From Macrocystis pyrifera (Eukaryota; Sar; Phaeophyceae; Laminariales; Laminariaceae): a stretch of 64,000 bases of DNA. This document shows, piece after piece, positions 9,189 through 64,000 of this stretch. The notes under the pieces are model-generated. The model was given only the letters and a program-made list of their open reading frames with translations. It was not told where the DNA came from and ran no database searches. The DNA lies in assembly GCA_031763025.1 (NCBI GenBank), contig JASSKH010000006.1, positions 15,093,479 to 15,157,478 on the forward strand. Direction: 5' to 3'. The position numbers and the translations under genes were made by a program. The stretch's first letter is position 1, and the number at the start of each line of letters is the position of its first letter.

Positions 9189-11939
9189 GGTTGTTGGTGG
9201 TGGTGGTGGTGGTGGTAGCTCTTATGTTGATACTTTTATAGTACCGCACTTTTATAGTACCGCACTCCCGTTTTGGGGACAACTCACTTGGAATTAGAGT
9301 GGTTTGTCCCCAAATCGAGACTGCGGCACTAAAGGGGTTAACATCGCTGTTGTCGTTGTCGCTTTGGTGCTCGCTGACGTCAGCGATTTTCATGTGGCTG
9401 CTATTGCGGTTGTTGTTCTTGCTGGTCACTGCTTCTGTTTTTCGTTTATGTTGCTGTTACTTCTGGTTCAGTTGCTTTTGTTTGGTTGTTTTTTCGTTGC
9501 CGCTCTTGCTGTCGATTTCGTTCCCGTTTCCCTTTTGGTGTTGTTTACTTCTTCCTTTCCGTTTTAGTTCCCCTCTTCTGTTCCGCTTCTTACGTTGTCG
9601 CTTTCGTTTCCACCCTCGCTTTCGTTTTGGCGTCCGTTTTCGTTTCCGTTTTGGTTGTAATAACACCAACGTTACAGCAGCAGCCGGACATTCCCGATGT
9701 CGGTCACCAAAACCCGGCCCTCTCCAACGCCGACGGACAGGACGAGATAACCTTCGAGGTCCACGTAGACAGTAGCCTGCCGGACCAGGCCTCAGGAGGA
9801 AGGGAGGAAAACCTCGCACAAAAATTCAGCCGCACGGGCAAATGGAAGGACACGCCGAAAGACAGTGATGTGGAGGACGTTGGGGGCAACACCTCCGGAA
9901 AGACCCAGCCAGAGGAGGGTATGGAGGATATTGATGGAAACGACTCCGAGATTGTCCATGAGGGGAGCGGGGAGAATGATGCAGTCGAGGGCATCGGGGA
10001 TTGGGTCGTGGAGGAGGGGGTGGACTCGTGGAAGGTTCAGCGCGATGTGGAGGACGAGAGAAATGTGGACGTCGAGGGTGCGAAACGCGCGCGCAAAGGG
10101 TTTTTAAGAAGGTCTTCTGCTGGAGCCCTAGAGAGGCTGGCTAAGCGTCCACAAGGACAGGGTGAGGCGGGCGGTGGTGGCGGGCTGAAGGGCAACGATG
10201 AGATGTTGACGGGGGATCCGGTTGAGTTCGCCGGTGCCGAGGATCCCGGCGAAGACTTATTTGGTGGGTTGCTGCGAGGGGGCGAGGAGAAGAAGGAGAG
10301 GGAGGGTGATGGCGAGGAAGAGGGCGATAAGCAGGATGGTGATGAGGAGAGGGGGGGATAACGGGGAGGAGGATGACGAGGAGCCGGAAAATAGTAAGGA
10401 GGAGGACGATTACCTGCTGCCACAGGAGATAGAGAAAGTGGAAGGCGCCGACGCCCTTGCCGAGGGCAACTCGAAGGACCGGCTGGCCAAGCCGTTTTTT
10501 GAGTTGAAGGACCCTGACGTTGACGAAGAAGGCCAAAAGCCCCCCCCCACGGTTGCCTCGTTTGTCGGAGTCCATTCCAAGGACCATTCCGAGGGGGGGG
10601 AAAACGGGGACCGTTCGAAGGCCGTGCGAAACCCGGAGGCACCACCCGCTGCTCGCAACGGAAACTTGAGAGGTTCCGCGGTAGATGTGGAGGGCGCGGT
10701 CCCTGAAGATGAGGCTGCACTAGGGAAGGCCGAATTGCCCTCCGCGGTAGATGGTGGGGTCAAGGACCAGGATAAGGAAGACAAGGGTGAGGACAGGGAG
10801 GAGAGGCGGGCGGAGATGGGCACGGGTAAGTATAAGCGGGATGATCAGAGCGACGGTGGGCTTGGACGTGGTGCCGGAAATGATAAGCCCGGGGCGCTTG
10901 AAGCGGGGGTAGAACCGGGAAGAGTGCAAGGTGTGGGGGAGGACAAGGAGGGGGCTAGAGGAGGCGTTTCGGTCGGGGCGAAGAACGAAGAAGCCGCGGC
11001 CGATCCAAGCTTGGACGAAGAAGAAGCGACGTCCTTAGGCGCTCAGGGAGTTTCCGGGGACCAAACTGGAGACAACGTTGCTGGCCGCGATAACGCCGGC
11101 GGCAGTAGCAGCAACCGCAGAAGCGAGCCGGAGAACCGTGGCGAGGTGATAGATATGGGAGCGTCGACTGACGAGGAGGCTCTGGAAAAGAAGAAGGCAG
11201 CTGCGGTGGCGGCGCAAGGGCTCTTGCTTCCGAAGGTCGAGCTCCCCACCGAGGAGAACGAGCCGGTGGGGCGAGAGGTCACGGAGGAGGAGTTAGAGCA
11301 GGCGGAGGCGGGGGGGGGGGGCGGCGGGGGAGTGACAGCGGGGACGGGCTGGGCGCGGCGGAGCGGCTTGAGATGGAGCTGGAGAAGGCCAGTGGCCCAG
11401 ACGATGACTTGGAGGAGGAGAATGAAGATGAAGACGACGACCCCGCTTCGTCTGGCGGCAATGGCTACGGCGGTGGCAGCGGTGGTGGCGGTAGTGGTCG
11501 CGTTGGTGGACGCGGGGATGGGGGAAGCGATGACCGGAAGGGGCAGAGTCGGACGCCCGCCCACAGGAGCGACGACGACGCCGAAGTTGCAAGTGGCGCC
11601 GACGGTGACGATGATGGCTTTGCACACAGCACCATCGGCGGACGCCCCCGCGAGCAGGAGCAGCGATCCGCGTCCCGTTTTGAAAAAGAGTCCTCCTCGT
11701 CCTCCTCGTCCTCCTCCTCTTCCTCTTCCCCTGCCACACGGCGGGACGACGATGACACGGCATACGAGGCGAGCGGCGGTGACAGCGAAGATTATGACGA
11801 GTTCTCAGAGGGTTCAAGTGAGAAGGCGTCGTCCAGAGGGCGGCGTCGCCGTCCCCCCCCCCCGCGCCACGAGATTCCTGACTCGGTGTTGTTGAAGCGA
11901 GATGAGGACGCGCGGAAATTTATGGCGCGGTCGTCTTGA
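4277..11939 (+). CDS. Unknown coiled-coil and acidic disordered protein (multi-exon, two apparent frame changes)
   Basis: Proposed exons are 4277-4393, 5081-5197, 6842-6988, 8281-8359, 8487-8758 and 9681-11939. Most borders are AG/GT and phases agree; the 8360-8486 intron is the least certain. The first 150 or so residues are charged and heptad-like (ELDSTIAALRKNLAEE, TQLEVEVLESKNEDLEQQLL), so a coiled coil is likely. The last exon encodes about 750 residues dominated by Glu, Asp, Gly and Ser, with a Ser run and the C terminus EDARKFMARSS. That exon changes frame at the G7 run 10351-10357 and again in the G run near 11310-11320. The two changes compensate, so either homopolymer errors or real indels are possible. 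The ATG at 4277 directly follows an acceptor-like GAGCAG, so upstream exons may exist. Function is unknown; a structural or chromatin-associated role would be a guess. Confidence 0.6.
4395..4915 (+). repeat. TTTGG-rich pentamer tract in an intron
   Basis: About 500 bp of degenerate TTTGG and TTTGGC units on the plus strand, directly after the proposed donor at 4394. The long open frame across it (Trp/Phe/Gly/Leu-rich) is an artefact of the repeat. The strand asymmetry (T and G on one strand) is strong. Confidence 0.85.
5246..5365 (+). repeat. ATCC tetranucleotide microsatellite
   Basis: Imperfect CATC and ATCC units with interruptions such as ATTT and ATGG. It lies in the intron after the proposed exon 5081-5197. 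The following 5405-5490 is a TTGCTTGCGTGCGTGC-type tract. Confidence 0.85.
6181..6355 (+). CDS. Possible additional exon of the acidic-protein gene
   Basis: A stretch between the acceptor-like ATTTTCCAG and the donor-like ACACG/GTATGT at 6356. It encodes AHAKKVGFGMYVVGVDTLTV and more in one open frame. The flanking exons 5081-5197 and 6842-6988 already join in phase without it, so it may be an alternative exon or chance. No domain is recognised. Confidence 0.25.
7203..7367 (+). repeat. Minisatellite, unit about 25 bp (GGGGGTACACACAACCTAAA)
   Basis: About seven imperfect head-to-tail units of GGGGGTACACACAACCTAAA with A-rich length variation. It lies in the proposed intron 6989-8280. Confidence 0.85.
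7507..7535 (+). repeat. CTG trinucleotide repeat
   Basis: About nine CTG units in the proposed intron 6989-8280. The interval 7560-7580 contains the palindrome ATACTTCGAAGTAT. From 7585 a fragment of the GGAGACCGG TIR family begins. Confidence 0.85.
7640..7900. repeat. GATC-rich dispersed repeat, copy 1
   Basis: Shares short ordered blocks with 18290-18900, 46780-47010 and 61430-61690. These include GCCGTTATGAGACGTTGTGC (compare GCCGTTGTGAGATGTTGCGC at about 46820), a GGTCCCACCC or GCCGGGTGGGA block, and the closing GATCTGTCTGATGT. The copies are strongly diverged and rich in GATC and TAGATC palindromes. Confidence 0.55.
8011..8113 (-). mobile_element. Short MITE (TTACGG family), near-complete copy
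   Basis: Terminal inverted repeats CGGGGGACCATATTTAATAG at the left and, as reverse complement, CGAGGGGCCATATTAAATAG at the right. The centre TAAAAATAGGTAAATATATA is shared in the opposite orientation with the copies at 21512, 34559 and 62360. There is no coding capacity. The mobilising superfamily is not settled; a TA-type duplication is possible. Confidence 0.8.
9008..9038 (+). repeat. Poly-G run of about 31 bases
   Basis: An uninterrupted G run just after GATATTTCG in an intron. Such runs are prone to length errors, which matters because two G runs in the downstream exon appear to change frame. Confidence 0.95.
9155..9220 (+). repeat. GTT then GGT trinucleotide repeats
   Basis: A tract of GTT units followed by GGT units. 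On the opposite strand it gives a Gln-run ORF that is an artefact. Confidence 0.95.
9255..9331. mobile_element. 77-bp perfect-ended hairpin, probable tiny MITE
   Basis: Left end TAGTACCGCACTCCCGTTTT plus GGGGACAA. The reverse complement of the right end is TAGTGCCGCAGTCTCGATTT plus GGGGACAAA. The loop contains CACTTGGAATTAGAGT, which recurs near 51024-51042; related GGGGACAA blocks occur near 30893. A 16-bp TTTTATAGTACCGCAC duplication precedes it. The following 9340-9670 is a low-complexity tract of TTTCG, GTTGTT and CGTTTTCG units with no supported exon. Confidence 0.6.
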
Positions 11940-14495: not shown

Positions 14496-14590
14496 ACTGG
14501 AGCGGACGGCAAGTACGTATCGATGGCCAAATACTGGTCGCGTGTGGTATCGGCTGCCGAATGCTGGTGGCGTTGTTTAAACGGCCAAAT
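14496..14590 (+). CDS. Candidate exon leading into the 28-bp minisatellite
   Basis: After the acceptor CTCTCCGTGCAG the frame reads TGADGKYVSMAKYWSRVV and continues into the tandem array. The sequence coding for SMAKYW (ATGGCCAAATACTGG) is exactly the core of the following repeats. The 3' boundary cannot be fixed. Confidence 0.4.
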
Positions 14591-15125
14591 ACTGGTGGTG
14601 GCGTGGCGTAGACGGCCAAATACTGGTGGCTTGATATCGATGGCCCAATACTGGTGGTGGCGTGGTGTAGACAGCCAAATACTGGTGGCGTGGTATCGAC
14701 GGCCTAGTACTGATCGCGTGGTATCGACTGCCAAATACTGGTGGCGTGGTATCATTGGCCAGTATACTGGTGGTGCCGTGGTGTAGACGGCCAAATATTG
14801 GTGGCATGGTATCGAGGTTTAGTTCGATGGCCAAATACTGGTGTGTTTTGTTACTGATGGCCAAATACTGGTGGGGTGATATTGACGCCAAGTGCTGGTG
14901 GCGTGATAACAACGACCGAATACTGGATGCGTGATATCGACGGTCGAGCGCTGGTGGCGTAGTATCAACGGCAAATTACCGGTGGCGTGGCATCGACGGC
15001 CTAATTCTGATGCAGTATCGATGCCCAAGTACTGGCAGCTTGGTATCGACGGCCAAGCACTGGTGGTGTCGTATCGATGGCGAAATACTCGTGGCGTGAT
15101 AACAACGATCAAATACTGGCAACGT
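14517..15125 (+). repeat. Minisatellite, 28-32 bp unit, about 21 copies
   Basis: Consensus GATGGCCAAATACTGGTGGC followed by GTGGTATC. About 21 imperfect copies, counted on the AATACTGG core and its variants. Later copies are more diverged. The unit length is not a multiple of three, so translations across it are meaningless. The first copy overlaps the candidate exon at 14496. Confidence 0.92.
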
Positions 15126-19812: not shown

Positions 19813-22800
19813 CTAGGCGAGCGTGAGGCCGATAGCTGCTGCCATCGCTTTGCTGGTCTCGACACCCACTTGCGCTTCGGCTGCCTCGCGAGATCCCTCC
19901 GCCGCGGCTTCCATTTCGCGCTTCGACGTGTCGAACGCCGCCTTCACCTGTTGGAAGACCGTGGAATACGGGTGATGACGTGGGAAACCGTGGAATGGGG
20001 GTCATGACGTGGAAAATCGTGGCATGTGGGTGATGACGTAGAGAACCGTGCCAGGGAGGTAACAGGGTGAAAACCGTGGCATGTGGTTAGGGCATGGATA
20101 GCTGTGGCATGCTAGTGATGACGTGGAAGCCCAAGGCATGGGTAAAATAAAGTCGACAACCGTGGCATGGGGACGACGACGTGGAAAACCGCGACATGCG
20201 AGAGTGATAACGTGGGAAACCCTGGCATGGGGGTCAAGGTGTGGAAAACCGTGGCATGTGGGTGATGCGGTGGAAAACCGTAGCATGGGGGTGATAATGC
20301 GGAGAGCTTAGGAATGACGTTGGAAACCGTCGAATATGGGTCGTGACATGTAAAACCATGAATTGCCGGCGATGAACGACGAAAACCGTGGCATCGGGGA
20401 TAAAGCATGGAAAAATCGTGGTATGGGGGCGATGTCATGGAAACACCGTGTCATACGGGGGTTGTGACGTGATAAACCGTGGCGCGGGGGTCAAGACGTG
20501 GAAAACCGTGGCTTACGGGGGGGGTGTCGTGGAAACCACAATGGCATGGGGGCGTTTTCTTGGCCCGAAAAGGGAGAACACGTTTTGGGAACAACCTACT
20601 TGAAATTATATATAGTGGAAGAAGTTTTGCAGTGGTAAACGAGGGTTTCACCGAAAAAATACACGACCAACCCATGTATTTTCACAACCCAGTTCGGCAT
20701 CACGCACGACGCCGCACATAAGGCCTTGAGCCTTGCCCAAAACAAGAAATTGTTGGTGTTGGCCTGTGCATACTTGTGTAGTTATTGATGCTAATAACGG
20801 CATCAATCGTGTGAATAGTATTGTGGAACCAGGCCCCCTTTCCCTAAATGGTACCGCCTCATTCTACACAAGTTCAAGGTCACACCCAAGGTCGGTCAAT
20901 TCGTTCCGTGTAGACCCGGGGTACCGATCAATCTCCGTGTGTACTGTGTACGCCACACCACAACCGCAAAAGGGAGAAACCTGCGCGGGGCGTCCGCCCC
21001 ACACTCGCGTCGTTATCGCCCCGTTCCGTGTATTCATACACCCGAGGAACCTGTTTGAGCCAGGCGTCCCCCCCACAGCAAATATGTGCCCGGTACCAGT
21101 ATTACTCGTACAACTCACCGCTGCCTCATCGAGCTCTTCCACTCTGACGGCCTCGATGGCGGTGATGTCCGTCACGGACGACGGGTGGGTCAGAGCGAAC
21201 CCAGCAGACACGAAAAACTTTTCCGGCTCTTGTCCCTGCCGCGATCAGTCACGGCGAGGAGGTGCACGGTCACGGTGAGAAACAGAAAACGTTTCAGTTA
21301 CGGGTCATATTTACAATAGTAATTTTGCTGGTTTATCAACCCCCTTTTAAAAACGCCAAGAATACGCCACGCCGCTTCCAAGTACCAGGTAGTTTGCAGC
21401 CAAAAGCGTGAAGTCATTTTGTAAGAGGGGTACATACTGGTGATTTTGGCCATACCTTAAGCATATACATCGAATCCTGGCACACATCGAACATATAATA
21501 AAACGTTCCTATTACGGGGGACCATGTTAAATAGGACCTACGGTACCCACAAAAACCTATATATTTTCCTATTTTTACCAACATTAGTTGGTCATATACT
21601 ACTGAAATTGTAGTCCGGGTCTACACGAAATTACGATACCATACCTTCCCCAGCTTACCCCAGCAGCGCGAGCTTTTACATAAAATACCATCCCCAACTC
21701 AGTAGGCCGAGCTACCACCCCCTACACAGCGCTTAGTTTTATCCTGACGGTTCCAAAGGGCACCCGCCGAGTGACGGTTACAGAGAGCATCCCTCTGACT
21801 GATGGGTACAAAAGACGTATTACCGAGTGCCGGTTACAAAGGGCATCCCAGCAAGTGACGGATACAAAGGGCATCCCGCCGACTCGCGGCTACGTACAGC
21901 GTCCATCCCGCCCACTGGTGGTTCCAAAGTGTGTCCCGCCGACTGATGGGTTAGAAAATGTATCCCGCTGACTGACCCGTATGAAGTACATCCCGCCGAC
22001 TGACGGTTACAAAGGGCATTCCGCATTCCACAGACTGGCGGATAAAAAGTATCTCGCCGACCGACGGTTACAGAGCAACCTGCCGACTGACGGTTACAAC
22101 GTGCATTCCGCCGACTAACGGATAAAGAGTACATCCCGCAGACTGAAAAATACAAAGTGCAACCCGCAGGCTGACGGCTACAAAGTGCATCCCGCCGGCT
22201 GATGGCTACAAAGCGCCTCCCGCTGATTGACGGATAAGAAGCATATAACAAATCCGGCCGACTGACGGTTGCAAAGGGCATTCCACCGATTGACGGTTAC
22301 AAAGTGCATCTCACCAACTGACATTTACTAAGTGCCTCTCGTCGAATGACGGTTACTTATATCACCAACCACAGACTGACGGTTACGAAGTGTATCCCGC
22401 CGATTGACGACTTCAAGTTATCAAGGGCATCCCAACGACTAATGATTACAATTTACATATAGCAAGCCTGTACAAGTAGCATTGTATAAAAGGCACCAGA
22501 GTTATTTCCAATATTGGGGTTCAAAGTGGCTCACCGGCTCGTGCAGAACCTGGACAACACCGGGTTTGAGCTCGGCGACGATCGGAGAGTGACCGGCGGT
22601 CACGCCGTACTCGCCCGCGCTTCCAGGGATGATGACCTGATAACAAAGAAACATCGAAAGAGCCACGGCACACCGGCATTAGAGGGAAGACAATAACAAG
22701 CAAACACGCTATTTTAGTTAGTGCAATGGCGATTCATGCTGGCACAGCTCTAATGTGCGTTTGCGGTGGTACGAGATGGTTCTTGACGAAACGCCTCCGC

Positions 22801-24777
22801 GTCTGAGACCCGTGCTCACCGTGGCCAGAGTCACGATTCAACAACGAACTTTAAAATGACGCAACACAGAGGACAATATCTTGCAGCAGGCACCAGGTAT
22901 ATACCTGCCGTTGCTGGCCTCTGCTGGCCTCTGCTAGGTACACCTCTGTAAAAATAAGGGCTACTTGGGTATCCATATAACAAATATTCCCTATATCTAC
23001 GGACAGCCTTCTATGGGTTATCTATGTGGGGATGTGGGGTTTCAAGCGTAAACGTCAGCGTCTACACCACCCAAACGTTCCCTCCATCTACTGTACAGAC
23101 TGGTATCATATCATATGTGTCGTGCTTGCGGGGGTTTTAAGCGTGAATGAATGTGGACGCGCACACGTGACAGTTGACTGACCTGGTCAACCACCTTGTC
23201 CTTGTAGATGCTCTCGTGGGGGAGGCAGAAGTTCAGCTTCATCGCCGCCGGGGCCTCGGCTGTCGACAAACACCTACCAGGTATATACCAATACAAACAG
23301 CGGTAGAAAAATAAACTGTAGTAAGATAATGACAACTGGTACATACGATAACGATACCCATTGGCTGTTGTTGGTAGGGCTGGGCCCTGCTACTGCTTGC
23401 ACACAAGTAATATGTACATACTGGCTGCGTAAGATGCCAGCACGCTGCACCCGAACGGTACAATGAACAATTACTTAATAGTACGACGTACGACGTAGCG
23501 TGGGGAAAGTGTGGAACCCCAACCGCAAGTGATCAAGCCGCACACACCGGCATACTACTTTCGGCTCTCGGCGGGAATACAAGGAGCGCTTAAACATTAA
23601 TATTGAGACGAAGCGGTCCTTAAATTTCCGCCCACAGTGGTGCACTACACGTAACCTAACTCAAGTTATCAAGCCTATTCACTATTCACTGCCGGCCCGG
23701 TGATAAAAAAGAGCCGCACTAGTCCACAAGAAACCCACTCTCAAACTTCCGGGGAAATAAGAATTTCGGGAGCGGTCACACGTTCTACTATTAATATTAT
23801 AGTACTAAAAACTACCTGTGTACATTAGTCTCCTCATCAAAATACAGTACCCGGTAAGAACTAACCCTCAGGTCCGCAATATTGCTTTCGCTTGGACTCG
23901 CATATGAATGTCAAGCGGTACCTATATTCTCGGCCGGTGTGGTATATATTGAGCGGGTATCCCAGTTTCTTATTGTAGGGCCGGCACTGACTGCTGTGTG
24001 CCTGGTATGTGCATACTCCGTCCGTACTTGGCACAGCAGCAGTACGAGTGTCATGGCAAAGCAAGACGCACTCAACGCATGCAAACAAGCTCTTGTGTCA
24101 ATGCGCGAAATGCGTGAGGCACTTCCTGGAATGGTGAAACTTGCGTCGTCCTGTCAATGCAGAATGGGTCAGGGCAAGACGCAAACCGATTGAAGTTGTT
24201 CTAACTGCCTGTGTGTTGCATAATAGAGAGGAAGCGTTCGCACTGCAGCAAGATGGAGGGTTTCCTGGTAGGCTAGTCCAGTGAATGATAGAAGGCAATC
24301 GCTTGTGCCAGAGAGAACTCGGGAGTTCGTGCCCCTAGGTAGCTCTGATGTCCCTTACAGTAGGTATACCTGATACTGGTGACTGCTGTTGCTTGTACGT
24401 ACTGCTGCTGAATGTACTTTCAAAGTACACCAGACATCAGCAAACAGGGTCTAAAATCGTGTGCGTGAATGACATTTGACTCGACGAACAATATAGGTAC
24501 AACTACTGCAGTTCCGAGCTCGCCGACGGCAACACCCTGACCACTCCTAAACTAGCACCAGCGAAGCAATCAACGGCATGCACGGCTTCCACCTAGTGCA
24601 CCCATGCCCCCCTTAGAACCCTTTGCATCACCCACTCACACACCTGATGCGGTTGGTATCGTACTCTAAAACCAGCTAGAAAGGCCTAGAAAAACGTTTA
24701 ATTGCTCCCCACCTCGCAGATCGCAGCGCAGGCCGAGCCGCAGCCCCCGCCACACGCCTTGCAGCAACTCCAAGCAT
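19813..24777 (-). CDS. ATP5F1D: Mitochondrial ATP synthase F1 subunit delta (bacterial epsilon type)
   Basis: Minus-strand exons read in order: 23259-23183 (EAPAAMKLNFCLPHESIY, KDKVVDQ), 22636-22535 (VIIPGSAGEYGVTAGHSPIV, then AELKPGVVQVLHEP), 21235-21119 (KFFVSAGFALTHPSSVTDIT, AIEAV) and 19947-19813 (VKAAFDTSKREMEAAAEG to LTLA and stop). All junctions are GT-AG and in phase. The first three encode the N-terminal beta-sandwich, including the G-HSP and KFFVS-GFA signatures of plant and fungal delta. The last encodes the C-terminal helical hairpin. The protein forms the central stalk with gamma and epsilon. A candidate first exon, 24777-24713, starts MLGVAARRVAGAAARPALRS: no acidic residues, transit-like. 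A 26-nt exon at 24665-24640 would restore phase but implies a 47-nt intron. The 5' end is therefore tentative and the rest firm. Two of its introns carry minisatellites. Confidence 0.92.
19950..20545 (+). repeat. 29-bp minisatellite in the last delta-subunit intron
   Basis: About 20 units of GTGGAAAACCGTGGCATGGG plus GGTGATGAC. The array begins within a few bases of the 3' splice site of the minus-strand intron 21118-19948, so the acceptor region itself is made of repeat sequence. Copies vary by substitutions and small indels. Confidence 0.92.
21512..21593 (+). mobile_element. Short MITE (TTACGG family), 3'-truncated copy
   Basis: TTACGGGGGACCATGTTAAA, TAGGACCTACGG and CACAAAAACCTATATATTTT then CCTATTTTTACC, ending at GTTGGTC without the right terminal repeat. 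Lies in the delta-subunit intron 21236-22534. Confidence 0.75.
21735..22450 (+). repeat. 30-bp minisatellite in a delta-subunit intron
   Basis: Roughly two dozen units of GACGGTTACAAAGGGCATCC plus CGCCGACT, diverging at both ends. Lies in the intron 21236-22534. The unrelated array 19950-20545 in the next intron has the same period. Confidence 0.92.
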
Positions 24778-25187
24778 CCTGAGCAAGTTGTACCAAAGAA
24801 CCTACGTTACTGCCTCTCCTCCTGAGCTAGGCGCGGATGCTTCCTCTACGTGCCAGTACAGAGTTCACTAATCGCGATTGGTTCTGCGATGTTTTCTGGG
24901 TCCGTCCGTGAATCAGCAAAATATGCCAGAAGACCGGTCATTCTAGACGCGTCAAGGTGTAATTTTCCTTTAATATACTATGTTTATTATTACCATGCAG
25001 TCAGTCAAGAAGTCAAACCGCAGTCTCCCAGCATCTTTGTGAATCAGTCGCCTAGAGACACTTTCTAAAAGGCGTTTCGGGTTTGGGTGATGGAGCGGAG
25101 ATTCCCCGGTCTCGAGAGCATATGGGGTGGGCCAGGAACACTGCAGTGCGGGCGTGTCAGATTATACCCCTTTAGGCAGGAACAACG
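24778..25187. promoter_or_regulatory. Putative bidirectional promoter between delta and beta ATP synthase genes
   Basis: About 410 bp separate the candidate minus-strand start codon of the delta gene (24777) from the plus-strand ATG of the beta gene (25188). No TATA box is obvious at a fixed distance from either start. A TIR element copy occupies 24929-25028 inside it. The shared-promoter role is inferred from geometry alone. Confidence 0.55.
24929..25028 (+). mobile_element. GGAGACCGG-family TIR element inside the shared promoter
   Basis: Starts AGAAGACCGGTCATTCTAGA with CGCGTCAAGG, and ends CAGTCAGTCAAGAAGTCAAA with CCGCAGTCTCCC. These match the ends of 13327-13544 and 17781-17877. About 100 bp, non-coding. 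Confidence 0.7.
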
Positions 25188-42930
<17,743 letters not shown>

Positions 42931-46263: not shown

Positions 46264-47304
46264 TCAATCGTCCCCATCGCCTTCCGCTGTGGCAGCCTGA
46301 GCCTCTCGAAACTGCCATTCTTGCCGACACAAGGGGCACTGCTGCTGCCGGTTCTGCTGGGTGGCGAACTGGAGGTGCTTGAGGACGCAGTGCATGTGGA
46401 AGGTGTGGTTGCATTGTCCCCATACTGCAGTCGGGACGGGGCAAGACGTGGTGAGACACAGCGGGGAAAGAGGGTGCACGCATGTCATGCGGTGCAGAAG
46501 GAGTTTGTAAAAACACGGTCAGCTCGTGTCATCGTCATCGTCCGGAATACTACTATTAATAATAGGCGACACACAACCAACTAACCCTACAACTACTACC
46601 ACTACTACTGCTGCTGCTTCTATTACCACGAGTCGTGCACGCCCGCTCCACCCAACCCGTACCCCAAATACAATGTCGCTTCCTTAAGTAGGATTCGCAC
46701 GCTCCAAGACAGCAACATTCTCATTAAATTGTATGATTCAACGTTCTGCACGACGGACAGGCCAGTCAGATAGATCAGACAAAATAGTCTACAGTAGTAG
46801 ATTGTCTAGGTCCTATACTTGCCGTTGTGAGATGTTGCGCAAGAGCGGTATCACGCAGAACCTACCCGGCAAGCATGTGCGTAAGAGCTGTGGCATACAG
46901 ATCATACAGATCCCACCCAGAAAACACGATCTACCGTGCAGACCATATATACGAGGGGAATAACTACACAATTAAATGGTGATCTGATCTGTCTGGTGTG
47001 TGCAATCTTCCACGTGACCTAGGTAGGTTTTGCGGCGGTGGTAGAACAACGCACGCGACGACCAGGGCCGACCACCACCAACAACGCCGTCTGCGGGCAT
47101 GAAGGCGGGCGGGGCAAGCCATAAATACCTGAAGCGTCATTTCGAGCAGACGAGAAACAGAAAGGGTTCTGGCGAGGGGTCTCACCAGGCGAGCAGTTGT
47201 CCCCGGGAACCGTGCAGTCCGGACAGCACGCGTCGAAAGCTAGTCGGCAAATGCCGCATACATCTTCGTTAACGTCCCACTTCCACACCGCCACCCCGTG
47301 CCAC
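46264..47304 (-). CDS. APC11: APC11, RING-H2 subunit of the anaphase-promoting complex
   Basis: Exon 47304-47186 encodes WHGVAVWKWDVNEDVCGICR, then LAFDACCPDCTVPGDNCSP. After a GT-AG intron, exon 46424-46264 encodes VWGQCNHTFHMHCVLKHLQF through QQCPLCRQEWQF and a short acidic tail, ending TGA. The order of Cys and His ligands (GIC, CCPDC, GQCNH, HMHC, CPLC) and the spacing are those of APC11, which binds E2 enzymes and catalyses ubiquitin transfer to cyclins and securin in the nucleus. The conserved MKVK start is missing here. The first exon must end with two bases of a codon. A candidate lies at 54039-54061 and is listed separately. Confidence 0.93.
46780..47010. repeat. GATC-rich dispersed repeat copy in an APC11 intron
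   Basis: Shares GCCGTTGTGAGATGTTGCGC, CAGATCCCACCC and GATCTGATCTGTCTGGTGTG with copies at 7640, 18290 and 61430. Sits inside APC11 intron 47185-46425. Confidence 0.55.
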
Positions 47305-50300
47305 CTAAAAACATGAAAAAGAAAAAAAAAACACACACACACACAGCGGTTGTGAACGACGGCCAGACGAACGGATGCTCCCTCATTCGTTTTCATAAAC
47401 CCTCCGGTAATTTCCTGCATCAATCATACAACACAACTCTCCTTTCGTTTTATATTTTATTCGCTCCACATCGTTATGTTCTTTTGATATGGGGTCCCCT
47501 CGTTTTTTTTTTCGGTTGCGACTCATGTACACGGGGAATAAATCTCAGTTCAACATTAAAATCAGAGGCAAACGGGAATTATACTCATGCAGTAGGCCAG
47601 AGTGGTGCGGTGATAACAGCCGTCTGGTGGGAGCTTACAGCAGCACGACAATAATTATTAACATGCTGCCTAGGCATGTGCCGAAGACCTCCGTGCATTG
47701 GTCTTTGGGTACACCCCCTCATGTGTTGATGGCCTCACAGTAGTGGACATTTGGCCACATCAACACATCAACATATCAACGCATCAACCCGAGCCGCTTC
47801 GTGTGAGCGATTCTGCAAGGAACGAAATGTGCATGCTTTCGACATTTTGTCCCAAAGGGGTTGTGATTAAGAACCAAATGTGTCAGGAGGCATACCAAGC
47901 AAGGGAAAACGCGCGCTGTCACTCGCTAACATCTAGTGTGTTGGCGGCAGTCAAGGCCAATTTCAAATGCTAATGCCCTCGATGAAATGCATTCGAGCGC
48001 TGTCCTCAGTCTTATTTTATGTGAAGTTTCAGTTGGAGTTGGTGAGAGAGACGAGAGAGACCAGTCGGCACCGGCACAGAGGGTACCCCAGCAGGTGGAG
48101 TTTGGCTCAGAGTGAGCGCCTGCGTGGTGGCTATCGGCACTACTCGTGGTCGCACTGGGCGGGGATATGGGATATTCGTCGCGGTTCGTAAAGGGCATTC
48201 AATATCCTACATACAATTCTGCTTCGTGTTGTTGGTAGTGATGCAACAGACTCTTCCGCACCTTACTATTACTAAAAGAGCTAAGCGAGTGTGGGAACGA
48301 CGAACGCAACATATCCACGGCGGCAGTGGTCAAGCTCCTAACAGCATAGAGCTACTTCGTTGGCGGGTGTTGTATTGTCATAGATGTGTTGTCGTCATTC
48401 TCAGCCTGGTCATTATAGTACTAAAGACAGATGTCCCGCCAGCTGGACCGGAACAGGCGACAGGTGCTGCCAGCCGGCAGAGACTCCGGGCACACAACAA
48501 GCCAGGGACGACCTCGGGGACACAGGAACAACACTTCGGTTTCAGAAGCCGCAACGCACCACGGCAGCACGAGCACCTGCACCAGTACTACCGCCACAGC
48601 ATTGGGATCGATTTCATGGAGATAATCGGTTTCGCAGTGCTAAGTACATTACTTGAGCGATGCGCGTCACAGCGCAGAAACCTTGTACAACTACAACTTC
48701 CTGTTGCGCGAGCTTGTCTCTGTCTAGGATAACGCATGGTCACTGGATGTCTTGGATGTTCACGGGTGGAAATAGCAGTTTAGTGTGAAGAACACAAAGA
48801 CCCAGAGCGTATACCAGGCGGTGTCTGGTACCAAGCAGCCCTATTTTGGTTTACCGCGTGAAATGAACGCAATTAAGTGCACACACAGCAATTCGATACG
48901 AGTCGACGCGAGAAGACTACTGTGTCAGTTGCGAGTCTTGAGTGGGGTACCTGATTCAAAAAGAGGCCAACCGCGTGTTTATTCGGGGGGGCCTATATCA
49001 CTTTTAATTTGAAATTCTGGCTTCTGGACAAGCCGTGGTCGCATGTGTCGTCCCTTCTCCGCTTGTTATCGCCCAGACGGTTCAGCATTCCCGACTGCTC
49101 GTCGATTTTCATCGAGTTTTGCCAACTAACCCTCTGAAACGAGATACAGTCCCCAGGCCGGCGGAAAGAGCTTATCTGCTTATAGTAGTAGTTGCTCGGT
49201 ATCTGTCTCGCTTCGTTCTCATTTTGGTCGTGCCGTCTTATTTTAACTACTTACTGCTGTGGAGACCATTTTGCAAAACTCTGAGTTTTCCAAATACGCA
49301 GCTTGTTATAATCAGACATGGCGATCCTTAATATCTAGTGTGTACGGTGGTTTTTGTTTCAAGTGCTCCTTTTTCACTGCATGCCCACGATTAGTCACTC
49401 TGACAGCACCCCAGACAGCAGGCGTGTTCCTCTCTGTGTTCACGACTACCGTGCGTTTCGTAAGGTGCAGGCAGCACTCCAGACAGCAACCGCTGTAGTC
49501 AGCATCATAGCCACGAGTTGGTTAGTTATGGGAACGGGGGGAACTCTATGCTGTAGTTCAGGGGATATACCCGCGACCATGTTAGTTGAGTTTGCACATT
49601 GTTTTCATGTTGTGTGTGCCTTCTTCGTCTCGTGTATTTTTAGGTGGGAAGAGTCGTGCTTCCCAGCCGATTAAAAAAAAAAAACGGTTTTTCGGATCTT
49701 CCCAGGGCTCCAGCACCTTTGTGTGACCACGGACTCCTCGATTCAAAAGGTAATGTGAGAACAGCAGTCAAATCACGATTCTCTTCAATGATGTGACAAA
49801 AGGCACGCCTGCCCTGTTGTGCTGCTGTGAACTTGGCGTATTTGATTATACCCTATTAGTTAGAACAAATCACACCCACCGACTCCTCTCGAATAACGTT
49901 TGCTACTACCGTAGGTACCCCTATTAATAGCACTGCTGACCACTCTCAACATATTGGCGTCCAAGCCTAAGGCCCTTCCAAAATAACATAAATGTAAGAA
50001 GCGTTTTGATCGAAATATTAGTACCCCAACGGTCTTATTTTCTGCCCGGTCAGAGTCTATTGGCATTTCGCATAGATCATGTGATGATGACGTGGTCGAG
50101 TATCAGTGGGGTACCCGATTCAGGAGCCCTTCGTGCTATACGCGTGCTCGAGAGTGCTCTCAGTGCGGGGCATGCCCTTCTCAACGCTTCCTGCTCCATA
50201 CGTGCATGCTTCTTATAATCTACAAGGATATTGGGCATGCATGCTCTTCTCGTGTCCTCGTAGGATTGAGTCCCTCGGTTCAACACCATTTCCCTTGATT

Positions 50301-57200: not shown

Positions 57201-60200
57201 TTTTTTTTTTTTCTAAACGTGACCATAGGAGGCGTGTTCTAACTTTTTTTTGGCGGGTATCTTTGGAATTCAAACTTTTTATGGGAACTTTGCGCTTCCA
57301 TTGGCATGGGTCTTAGGCCATATTTTTATGCTGTTTCCTACTGGTATGCGATTCGATATTTGAGCTTCAGATTTTGACCCGATCGCATTTTCGTTCTTCA
57401 CGTTAAACAGGTCTTGCTACTCGTCAACATCCAGCACAACCAGTGTCCGTGCCGATTATTCAATCCTAGAGAGATACAAGTTCTCTGGTCACAAAACTAC
57501 GCCACAGAGACACGACATTGTTATGCAGTAAGCAGAGTAGACAAACGCAATGCCATGTCATCATACTGGATACGACAGGCACAGCATACACATTCTATGG
57601 AAGAGAGATATTAAAAGAAAACGAACAGACGAACAAGGAAACATGGGTTTAGGGTACACGTACTTGATTTTGTTGTGTTTCCTGGTTCCCCAGCTCGAAA
57701 ATCGGTATAATTTGAAGACGAAAACTCTACCCCTGACATGTGTCAAACAGAATTTCTCGTAGCAGGTGCCACCACGACTACTGCTGTACGACATCTACAT
57801 CAGAGCTTCTCCGCCCCCTCATCAGTAGGAGGGTGACAGTACCACCTGCAGCATGTCTTGGGGACACGGCCCGAACGTTGCTGTGGACAGACACATTGTG
57901 CCTACGAGTACTCGTAGATTTGTAGAGTTGGGTTTCGTTCGGTAGAACTAAAGAAACAAAAGACCGTCATGATATTTTACCGTTCCGTTTTTTTCAAAAC
58001 CATGGCCCAGCCAGGTGCCTCTAGAAACACGTTGCCGCACCTACCGTAGCTCGACCAACTCTGAACGACTTACAACCGCGCCAACACGAGAAGGTTTCGT
58101 TGATATTTTTGCATGTACAGAGCCCTTTGGGGCTGGCATTGGTGCCGTTTGCGTTGAGCGCGGTGGACCAACGTGGCCAAAACAAATGCTGAATCACACA
58201 CACTTATAGAGAAACTTAAAACCAAGGTACCCTAGACTCGTCCGACCCGTTATGAAGAGGTTTTTTTCTCTTGGAAAACTAAGAAAAAAGAGGCTCGCGC
58301 GCCTCATGATGATGTGATAGTATCGTATCAATATCACTTCGAGTCTGGGCATAGTTGTTACTATTTTCGAGGATTGATACTGCGAGTACTGGGGGTACCC
58401 AGAACAAGGTTTCAGACCGATGTTAATCGAAACAGTGTCTCACATACCATAGACAATAATGTACCTGCTATGAATACGTCCTTTAGGGCACGAGGTGCGG
58501 GTGACCAACCTGTACGACGAGAAGTTCCAGCCAGTACTGGGGGGGGACGAGCACCGAAGATTCTTGACAGCGTACCGTGAAGACTGCCTGCAGGAGGATA
58601 TGAAGAGCCACGTGGATAACTTGCTGTGGTGCTCGGGGTTGGTGCTGTGCTATCCAACGTGGTGGTACTCTTTCCCCGCTATCTTGAAGGTAATCGTGTG
58701 CAGAGATACTGTAGTAACTACCTGGTAGACTGCACCAGTACTCTTAACATCCACTTAAACGTTGACCTTCGTATGAATTGTGCTTGTACCTTGGCTTTTG
58801 TACGGACTATGAACGGACTGCATAGGGATACAAACTGTTCCTACCTATGATATCTGGTCTGAATTTCCAAGTAACATGACCGTGGCACGTGCGCGCTGTG
58901 GTAAATGAGTTGGTGGTCGTTGTGTCGCCGCTTCCCATGATCGTCTGTCTGTGTCAAGCGCAGGCCATGCAGATCAAACTTGGTAACGGGCGTGTTTTTC
59001 ATTGCGCCTTGCATTACGCCCGCGTTGCGAAGGAAACGGATTCTATGCCATACCAACTGCGGTAACATTAGGACTTGCGGGATTACCTTGCCGGGACGAC
59101 TAAAGTTACAAAACTACTATGTGCTGGGACGACTTGGGATGCCTTGTTGTTGTTAGCCCGTACACGAGATCACGAACGGGTGATCGCACAGCTGTGCCAT
59201 CGTCTTATTAATAGCCATTTTAACACTGCACTGCACTGCACTGCACTGTACGTGTACGTACATATATTCCACTCTAATGAGAAATATTAGTATTAGTATT
59301 AGTGTTAATAACTTATCGTGAAAACGGGAGTGCGATCCTATACGGGTTAAGATTGGCCGAAAGGTGAAAATCAATGCTGGAATCACAACCGCAGCCCCCA
59401 CATGTCCCTACTGCCTCGTGCTGTCGTATCATGTAACGTTGTGGTGCCTCTATCCTTCACCCCCGCCCCCTCCCCCCGACACAGGGCTGGCTGGACCGAA
59501 GTTTTATGCCAGGCGTGGCCTTTGACATTGCCAACGGTGTGGACAGACCTCACGCTAGGACGGGTCTCGTCAGTCGCCTCGTCAACATCCGAAAGGTCAG
59601 GCCAAGATCCCTTTGAAAGTGCATGTCTGCGGCATGACTCGAACATTCTAAAGGCAAGAAGAGGCGCCATGATTCCGTATACACGAGCCTCCGCCACCGC
59701 AAAAGCTGGAGACATCAGAGCATGGTAACACGACAGCGTTGATTTTAAGGGTTGCAATCCTTTGGTGGCGTCATGTTAGGTCCAGTTCTCAACAGCCACT
59801 CAACCCCGGGTAGTGTTTTTTGTTAGATACGCTCCATATCCACTGAACTACCAGGTATTCGTCAGCGCGAACTTAAGAAAGAGTGTGATCATGGTAATGT
59901 CTATACATGCCATGTATTTTATTACAATAGTGCAAGACGTGCAAACGACGTGCAAACCGCGCTGACCATCACGATTGTTTCTTAGAGGACTGATTGGTTC
60001 GCGTTGTGCTCGATGAGTAGCGCATTGATTAGTTTTTTTATGCCCCCCATTCGAGGTATACAAACCTTGCTAGACATATCATGGACACAAATGGTCGTCA
60101 TATCTTATCGTCCTGTTTACCTTGGTTTTCTTTTACTGTAGAATTGTTTTCACATTAATAGTATTATTTAGTCGTATCATTAAGACGGTAGGGTTGCACC

Positions 60201-62465: not shown

Positions 62466-62825
62466 AATATAAGGACCAAGCGGTCATTATATTCACGCCC
62501 AGATTGGTACACGTTTTTGAGGGCAGGGTGCTGCGGTTGCTGGTATTGACGCTCTCTTATTCATTCTCTTATTCATTGGTGCGAGGCGTGCTCAAGGGCA
62601 AGTGAAACGAGTGAAAGAGGGGGGGTGGGGCAGGTACCATCTGGCTTCAACCGGCCATAATCTACTGGCAAGGGTACGCACGTCACCCCCAACTTCAATC
62701 ATACAAACACCCCGTGAAATCTGACGTATAAATACCTGGTATGGACATACCACATACCACGTGCGTACATCCTGAAGAGTACGGTAGGGTTGCAAGGTAC
62801 GAAAGCGAGGAGTGAACAGTTTATC

Positions 62826-64000
62826 ATGGACGAGGATGGCACGCTGTTGCGAGATCAAGCGCGAATTCGTGAAAGATGGGCGGGGCACTACCACAAACTA
62901 TTGAACACGAAATCGCTGAAACTTGACCCCACGATCATCGACCTAGTGCCACCACGACCGCTGAAACTATCCCTTGGAAATGAACCATCCATTGACGAGA
63001 TGATGGAAGCAGTGAAGGGTATGTCAAACTGGAAAGCCGTTGGACCAGATGGTCTCCCGGTCGAAGTACTGAAACTTGACCACCCCGCTTTCGTGCAGTA
63101 TTTTCACAGTATCCTTGTTAACGTTTGGGTAACGGGAGAAGTCCCCCAGCAATGGAAAGATGCGATCATAAAAACCCTGCATAAAAAGAAGGATAGAACT
63201 GATTGCAACAACTACAGAGGTATTTCGCTTGTTGCTCACGCAGGCAAGGTGTTGCTGAAAATCGTTGCGTCCCGTCTAAGCAGCTACTGCGAGACCGAGC
63301 ATATACTCCCTGAAGAACAGTGTGGCTTCCGCCCCGCACGGTCAACAGTCGATATGCTGTTTGTCGTGCGCCGGTTGCAGCAGCTCGGGCGGCAGAAGAA
63401 AATCCCCCTGTACATGTGCTTTATCGACTTGCAGAAAGCGTACGACTCTGTCGACCGAGAACTGTTGTGGGAGGTACTCACACGCCTTGGTGTACCAACC
63501 AAGATGCTCACAATCATTCGCAATTTTCACGAAGGCATGCGGGCTCGCGTGCGTGCGGATGACGGTGAACACTCGGACTGGTTCAATGTAACCCAGGGAC
63601 TGCGGCAAGGCTGCGTACTATCGCCGTTACTGTTCAACGTGTTCTTCGCCGCTGCGATACACATCGTGCTGGTACGCTTCAGCAAAGACGAATGCATCGT
63701 AAGGGATTTGGTTCATCTCGAAGAGGACAGGGTTGTCGGAAAAGAGGAACCGTTGGCATGCGTGCAAAGGGCTGTGTGGGGCATGTTGTATGCAGACGAT
63801 GCAGGAATAGTCTCGAAGTCGGCGGAAGGCCTTGCGAGAATGATGACAGTCATCGTGACTGTCTTCGAAGCAGTAGGTCTCACGGTATCCGAGAAGAAGA
63901 CAGAGACGATGCTCCTACGAACACCGGATCAGACGTTTACCACCTCACCGCTCGCGATCGAAGCTGCAGGCCAAAAGTATAAACAGACGACCCAGTTTTT
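62826..64000 (+). CDS. LINE (non-LTR retrotransposon) reverse transcriptase, 5'-truncated, runs off the window
   Basis: One open frame from ATG 62826 to the end of the window, 391 codons with no stop; it is open back to 62718. Reverse-transcriptase motifs in order: [44 protein letters not shown], motif [15 protein letters not shown] (Asp at residue 201), motif [18 protein letters not shown], motif C YADD (Asp 324 and 325) and motif [12 protein letters not shown]. The GPDG, FRP and YADD pattern is that of non-LTR elements, possibly RTE- or Jockey-like. The apurinic-type endonuclease expected upstream is absent, consistent with 5' truncation at insertion. The 3' part lies beyond the window. Confidence 0.95.

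Follow-up and report, generated by a model that had tools for sequence, protein, structure and literature searches.

A survey of 64 eukaryotic genomes lists the genes for the beta and delta subunits of mitochondrial ATP synthase as a conserved divergent pair (PMC2871058, Table 1; Davila Lopez et al. 2010). The entry comprises four pairs in three species of the groups Fc, Fz, and H, the legend giving Fc as Chytridiomycota and H as Heterokonta (PMC2871058). In the 64,000-nucleotide stretch of Macrocystis pyrifera DNA analyzed here (the window, to which all coordinates refer), mitochondrial F1 beta likewise adjoins mitochondrial F1 delta in divergent orientation. The group Fz does not appear in the survey legend and is presumably the zygomycete fungi. 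The published pair thus consists of the same genes in the same head-to-head orientation and includes Heterokonta, the group of the brown algae, although the surveyed heterokont genome may not be that of a brown alga and the likeness is one of gene names and orientation (PMC2871058). The preliminary description of this DNA had held that nuclear genes for different F1 subunits are normally unlinked, which fits most of the surveyed species but overlooks this very divergent pair in print (PMC2871058, Table 1). The pair in the window is real but known in kind, being a further instance of the recorded heterokont and fungal beta/delta layout.

The second point of comparison is Ectocarpus, the best-studied brown alga, whose genome is described as tending toward opposite strands for neighboring genes and in which divergent pairs are common, with a median gap of 409 bp (PMC7784034). 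Pairs closer than about 600 bp have a common nucleosome-depleted region and histone marks, and transcript abundances within divergent pairs are uncorrelated (r of 0.042 for all pairs and 0.054 for those under 600 bp) (PMC7784034). Close divergent pairs there are arranged head-to-head as here, and their median of 409 bp compares with 410 bp at this locus, where the distance is taken between start codons and not, as in Ectocarpus, over intergenic regions, so that the gap definitions may differ (PMC7784034). The common chromatin and the uncorrelated transcripts were measured in Ectocarpus, whereas the present locus is described from its sequence. The finding is less of a surprise given that the beta/delta pair has been published before and that many Ectocarpus genes are spaced this closely.

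The third described system is HSPD1/HSPE1, the genes of mitochondrial HSP60 and HSP10, a known head-to-head pair from worm to human that has a common bidirectional promoter and corresponds to groEL/groES (PMC10498591, PMC12116465, and PMC5053987 taken together, which are also the source of the kelp genome data given below). As here, two nuclear genes of one mitochondrial complex lie head-to-head and their bacterial homologues are found in one operon. A bidirectional promoter has been described there, whereas the promoter region here is a candidate suggested by the layout.

Gene models of the F1 beta and delta subunits

Both genes were rebuilt exon by exon; most exons were placed by conserved F1 words, and the models were finished by reading the splice borders. 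The beta gene occupies positions 25188-42930 of the plus strand and consists of 12 exons with a total of 1527 nt including the stop codon, encoding 508 amino acids. On the minus strand, the delta gene extends from 24777 to 19813; its 5 exons total 510 nt including the stop codon and encode 169 amino acids. The outer limits of the pair, 19813 and 42930, are the ends of the delta and beta stop codons. The genes are adjacent, lie on opposite strands, and face each other with their 5' ends, so that the rebuild bears out the strands and the head-to-head arrangement previously proposed. The distance between the start codons, earlier given as about 410 bp, is exactly 410 bp in the rebuilt models (24778-25187). 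The genes are also adjacent and divergent if the first exons are set aside, as had been claimed for that of delta, since delta exon 2 ends at 23273 and beta exon 2 starts at 26754.

The first exon of delta (24713-24777, minus strand) contains the start codon and the presequence MLGVAARRVAGAAARPALRSA and ends at a phase-2 donor, GTGGGG. It is followed on the same strand by exon 2 (23183-23273), exons 3 (22535-22636) and 4 (21119-21235), both anchored by conserved words, and exon 5 (19813-19947) with the stop codon TAG. The first exon of beta (25188-25245, plus strand) contains the start codon and a presequence of 19 amino acids and ends at a phase-1 donor, GTGAGT, while the conserved protein begins in exon 2 (26754-26881). 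Conserved words anchored plus-strand exons 3 (30017-30130), 4 (31247-31366), 5 (31889-31963), 6 (32559-32765), which encodes the P-loop GGAGVGKT, 7 (37891-38001), 8 (38714-38869), 9 (39741-39860), and 10 (41660-41815). Exon 11 (42291-42512), encoding the DELSEDD motif, and exon 12 (42871-42930), with the stop codon TAA, come from the rebuilt model, as do beta exon 2 and delta exons 2 and 5.

All introns of the two models (15/15) have GT...AG ends, and no internal stop codons were found in the beta or delta frame of the complete rebuilt models. The introns of beta measure 358-5125 bp and those of delta 546-1439 bp; long introns are called frequent in Laminariales in a Saccharina paper. The GC content of the window (49.0%) is closer to that of three kelps (49.4-50.4%) than to that of Ectocarpus (53.6%). 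These values, the alternating strands of the recognized genes, and the short divergent gap would be in keeping with a brown-algal, probably kelp-like genome. That either gene, or the two together, should be a processed copy or a pseudogene placed here by accident has a negligible probability. Both are intron-rich and intact and have canonical splice sites, and this reading was rejected on these grounds.

The protein families were assigned by Pfam, with matches of beta to ATP-synt_ab (4.8e-70) and ATP-synt_ab_N (6.5e-20) and of delta to ATP-synt_DE_N (2.6e-15). Among solved structures, a 238-residue partial beta query had its best matches at 1.6e-107 to 7e-107, including chains named mitochondrial, and the top chain named chloroplastic was at 9.4e-90. 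For delta, the best match was 2xok_H (1.3e-25), followed by chains named mitochondrial delta at 1.1e-24, and the top chain named chloroplastic was at 2.1e-12. The bacterial homologue of mitochondrial delta is epsilon, and epsilon chains were also among the solved structures matched by the delta sequence. As judged by sequence similarity, the nearest solved relatives of both proteins are mitochondrial and not plastid. The window contains two complete and intact nuclear genes, those of the mitochondrial F1-ATPase beta and delta subunits.

The first exons hold targeting presequences only and cannot be tested by homology; a control was therefore run. All ATG...GT candidates of 45-134 nt in the right phase were counted. 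To pass the rule, a candidate needed three or more K+R and no D/E within its first 30 residues, a share of A, L, S, V, T, or G of 60% or more, and a donor agreeing at no fewer than 4 of 6 positions. The 6 kb preceding exon 2 contained 60 beta-type and 91 delta-type candidates. In the whole window, on both strands and with the chosen exons included, 5 of the 1433 beta-type and 7 of the 1502 delta-type candidates passed, and arithmetic from these counts gives about 0.2 (beta) and 0.4 (delta) passes expected by chance per 6 kb. The chosen exon 1 of each gene passed the presequence-plus-donor rule, and there were no other passes among the 12 best-charged candidates for each gene in the 6-kb region before exon 2. 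Both leaders contain arginine or lysine, lack acidic residues, and are rich in alanine, which is typical of mitochondrial import, and both first exons join exon 2 in frame. Given the expected number of chance passes, each predicted first exon, assigned by presequence likeness and phase, is likely but not certain.

Several repeats are located in the introns. Degenerate tandem arrays of 28-29 bp units were found at 19952-20552 in delta intron 4 and at 21744-22409 in delta intron 3, and a further array of 28-bp units lies at 14517-15097. The 5.1-kb beta intron 6 contains a 155-bp direct repeat in five copies, 61-100% alike, at 35874-37389. A 68-bp repeat, possibly a small mobile element, is present in one delta intron (21511-21578) and two beta introns (34558-34625 and 38022-38089), the latter copies being 90% and 63% identical to the first.

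The 410-bp interval and co-regulation of the pair

The interval between the predicted start codons (24778-25187, GC 49.5%), which includes the 5' UTRs, is a plausible candidate for a shared promoter region of beta and delta. An unrelated gene transcribed between the two would have spoken against the pair as first described, but scans with Pfam, Rfam, and for tRNA revealed no recognized gene family in the gap. Its longest stop-free stretch is 80 codons, 59 counted from an ATG, and the three longest gap frames (80, 63, and 43 aa) had no Pfam match. Ten further frames, 94-226 aa long and located near the 5' ends or within introns, contained no Pfam family above the cut-off, the single sub-cut-off match, to a zinc finger, being in a tandem-repeat frame. 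A nested or intervening gene of a recognized family was rejected on the basis of these 3 gap and 10 surrounding or intronic frames, although small or non-coding transcripts of an unfamiliar kind may still occur in the gap. Moreover, no gap segment was among the 75 best coding-like segments in a codon-use scan trained on beta and delta, and neither an Rfam family at the gathering score nor a tRNA was found in the whole window.

The composition of the gap is average, with an AT content of 50.5%, which ranks at the 40th percentile among 2000 segments of the window. None of the five words tried gave a clear promoter signature in the gap. CCAAT occurs once, compared with a mean of 0.6 per window segment. 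The palindrome TCGCGA is present at 24872, beside a minus-strand CCAAT at 24881, but its frequency is marginal (4.4% of window segments have as many), and since five words were tried in all, it counts as no more than a lead. No bacterial-type promoter was found at 24500-25400, and there was one terminator-like site versus 1.1 expected, in a scan that is not meaningful for a eukaryote.

The locus is likely to be an unexceptional, compact pair of divergent nuclear genes, both intact, with the gap acting as shared open chromatin with two core promoters. A single nucleosome-depleted region would most likely cover the 410 bp between the start codons and contain two outward-facing core promoters, and beta and delta would therefore share open chromatin. 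We infer that the gap drives both genes and that transcription starts lie inside it.

The layout had initially been thought to suggest co-regulation, which does not follow, given that transcripts of divergent pairs are uncorrelated in Ectocarpus, also under 600 bp (PMC7784034). The spacing found here is the typical layout, and the typical layout does not imply co-expression there. On this analysis, tight co-expression of beta and delta would not follow from the layout and is not favored by default.

The stronger proposal is that selection has made the gap a working bidirectional promoter for the joint regulation of beta and delta, with elements keeping the two transcripts in step, as claimed for HSPD1/HSPE1. 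Both proteins belong to the same complex, and the HSP60/HSP10 genes provide a precedent of a head-to-head pair with a common bidirectional promoter. Adjacency by chance has a low probability, about 0.0011 for any two of the five F1 genes and 0.0105 for any two of the 14 subunits, as computed, like the other chance figures given here, for a genome of 17,406 genes. Against this, F1 contains three beta per one delta, so there is no obvious need for equal output from one promoter, and no outstanding common motif was found in the gap. The survey records the pair in distant groups, which favors such selection, but in only 3 of 64 species, so the linkage is not required (PMC2871058), and close divergent pairs of Ectocarpus are not co-expressed on average (PMC7784034). 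Taken together, we consider selection for co-regulation rather unlikely.

It is also possible, though doubtful, that beta and delta are chance neighbors in a genome rich in short divergent pairs, with no functional or historical meaning. Short-gap divergent pairs are very common in Ectocarpus (PMC7784034). Moreover, about 0.28 adjacent pairs are expected per genome among 70 respiratory-chain and ATP synthase genes (70 being an assumed round number), so that some linked respiratory pair somewhere is unremarkable. The recurrence of beta and delta in distant groups is less so: this named pair is expected about 0.0001 times per genome, yet it is reported as divergent in other groups too (PMC2871058).

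One locus alone is a well-supported annotation and a good example of a known arrangement, not a discovery. If the pair proves to be widespread in brown algae, it would provide a natural test of whether subunits of one complex are co-regulated by a head-to-head layout, in a lineage with many such pairs but no co-expression seen on average.

Comparison with bacterial atp operons

For comparison, 81 loci with a beta homologue were used, 80 being the top-ranking ones among 588 confirmed matches in genome contigs and 1 coming from viral contigs. The homologues atpD and atpC were located near each other on one strand in 80 of the 81 loci and on opposite strands in none; in the exception, the contig stops 153 bp beyond the beta frame, which leaves the neighbor out of view. 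Scans of viral contigs revealed no delta relatives, a single beta locus with bacterial gene content, and no eukaryote-looking locus for either protein.

As in the bacterial arrangement, homologous genes lie side by side here, bacterial epsilon corresponding to mitochondrial delta. The bacterial genes are co-directional, whereas here they are on opposite strands and have introns and presequences. Since the homologues share one strand in 80/81 loci and are divergent in none, the pair is not an unaltered operon remnant, and a retained operon was ruled out by its orientation.

The nearness of the homologues in 80/81 comparison loci would fit a modified scenario, in which atpD and atpC were transferred to the nucleus as neighbors and later came to lie head-to-head through an inversion. 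Parallels can be pointed out: the authors of the survey note that the S16/L13 divergent pair is also one prokaryotic operon (PMC2871058), and HSP60/HSP10 likewise correspond to one bacterial operon. Nevertheless, with 0/81 comparison loci divergent, an extra inversion is needed, an independent origin in every line is equally simple, and the scattered occurrence in the survey (3 species) means many losses if the pair is ancestral (PMC2871058). A flipped remnant is therefore improbable. Its fuller version, which we likewise regard as improbable, is that the nuclear pair is a relic of the endosymbiont atpD-atpC, in which the inversion swapped the operon promoter for a bidirectional one, and that it survives in some heterokont and fungal branches, with HSP60/HSP10 as a comparable case. 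The beta/delta pair also adds a data point on whether bacterial operon neighbors tend to re-emerge as nuclear divergent pairs.

Other features of the window

Outside the pair, an APC11-like gene lies on the minus strand at 46267-47423, convergent with beta. The APC11 RING-H2 profile PF12861 matched two frames, 47022-47423 over profile positions 1-26 (1.4e-09) and 46267-46518 over positions 25-65 (5.5e-12), and these are probably two exons of a gene for anaphase-promoting complex subunit 11. A plus-strand frame at 58474-58725 had a Flavodoxin_2 match (3.8e-14) and is probably an exon of a quinone-reductase-like gene. The recognized genes, and only these, alternate in strand: delta (minus), beta (plus), APC11-like (minus), and flavodoxin-fold (plus, 58.5 kb).

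On the plus strand, positions 9378-11936 contain long open frames that are acidic and of low complexity and whose codon use resembles that of coding sequence; the two frames tested, 9378-10358 and 10210-11892, had no Pfam match. At the opposite end, a plus-strand reverse transcriptase frame (RVT_1, 2.1e-34) at 62718-63998, likely belonging to a retroelement, reaches the end of the window.
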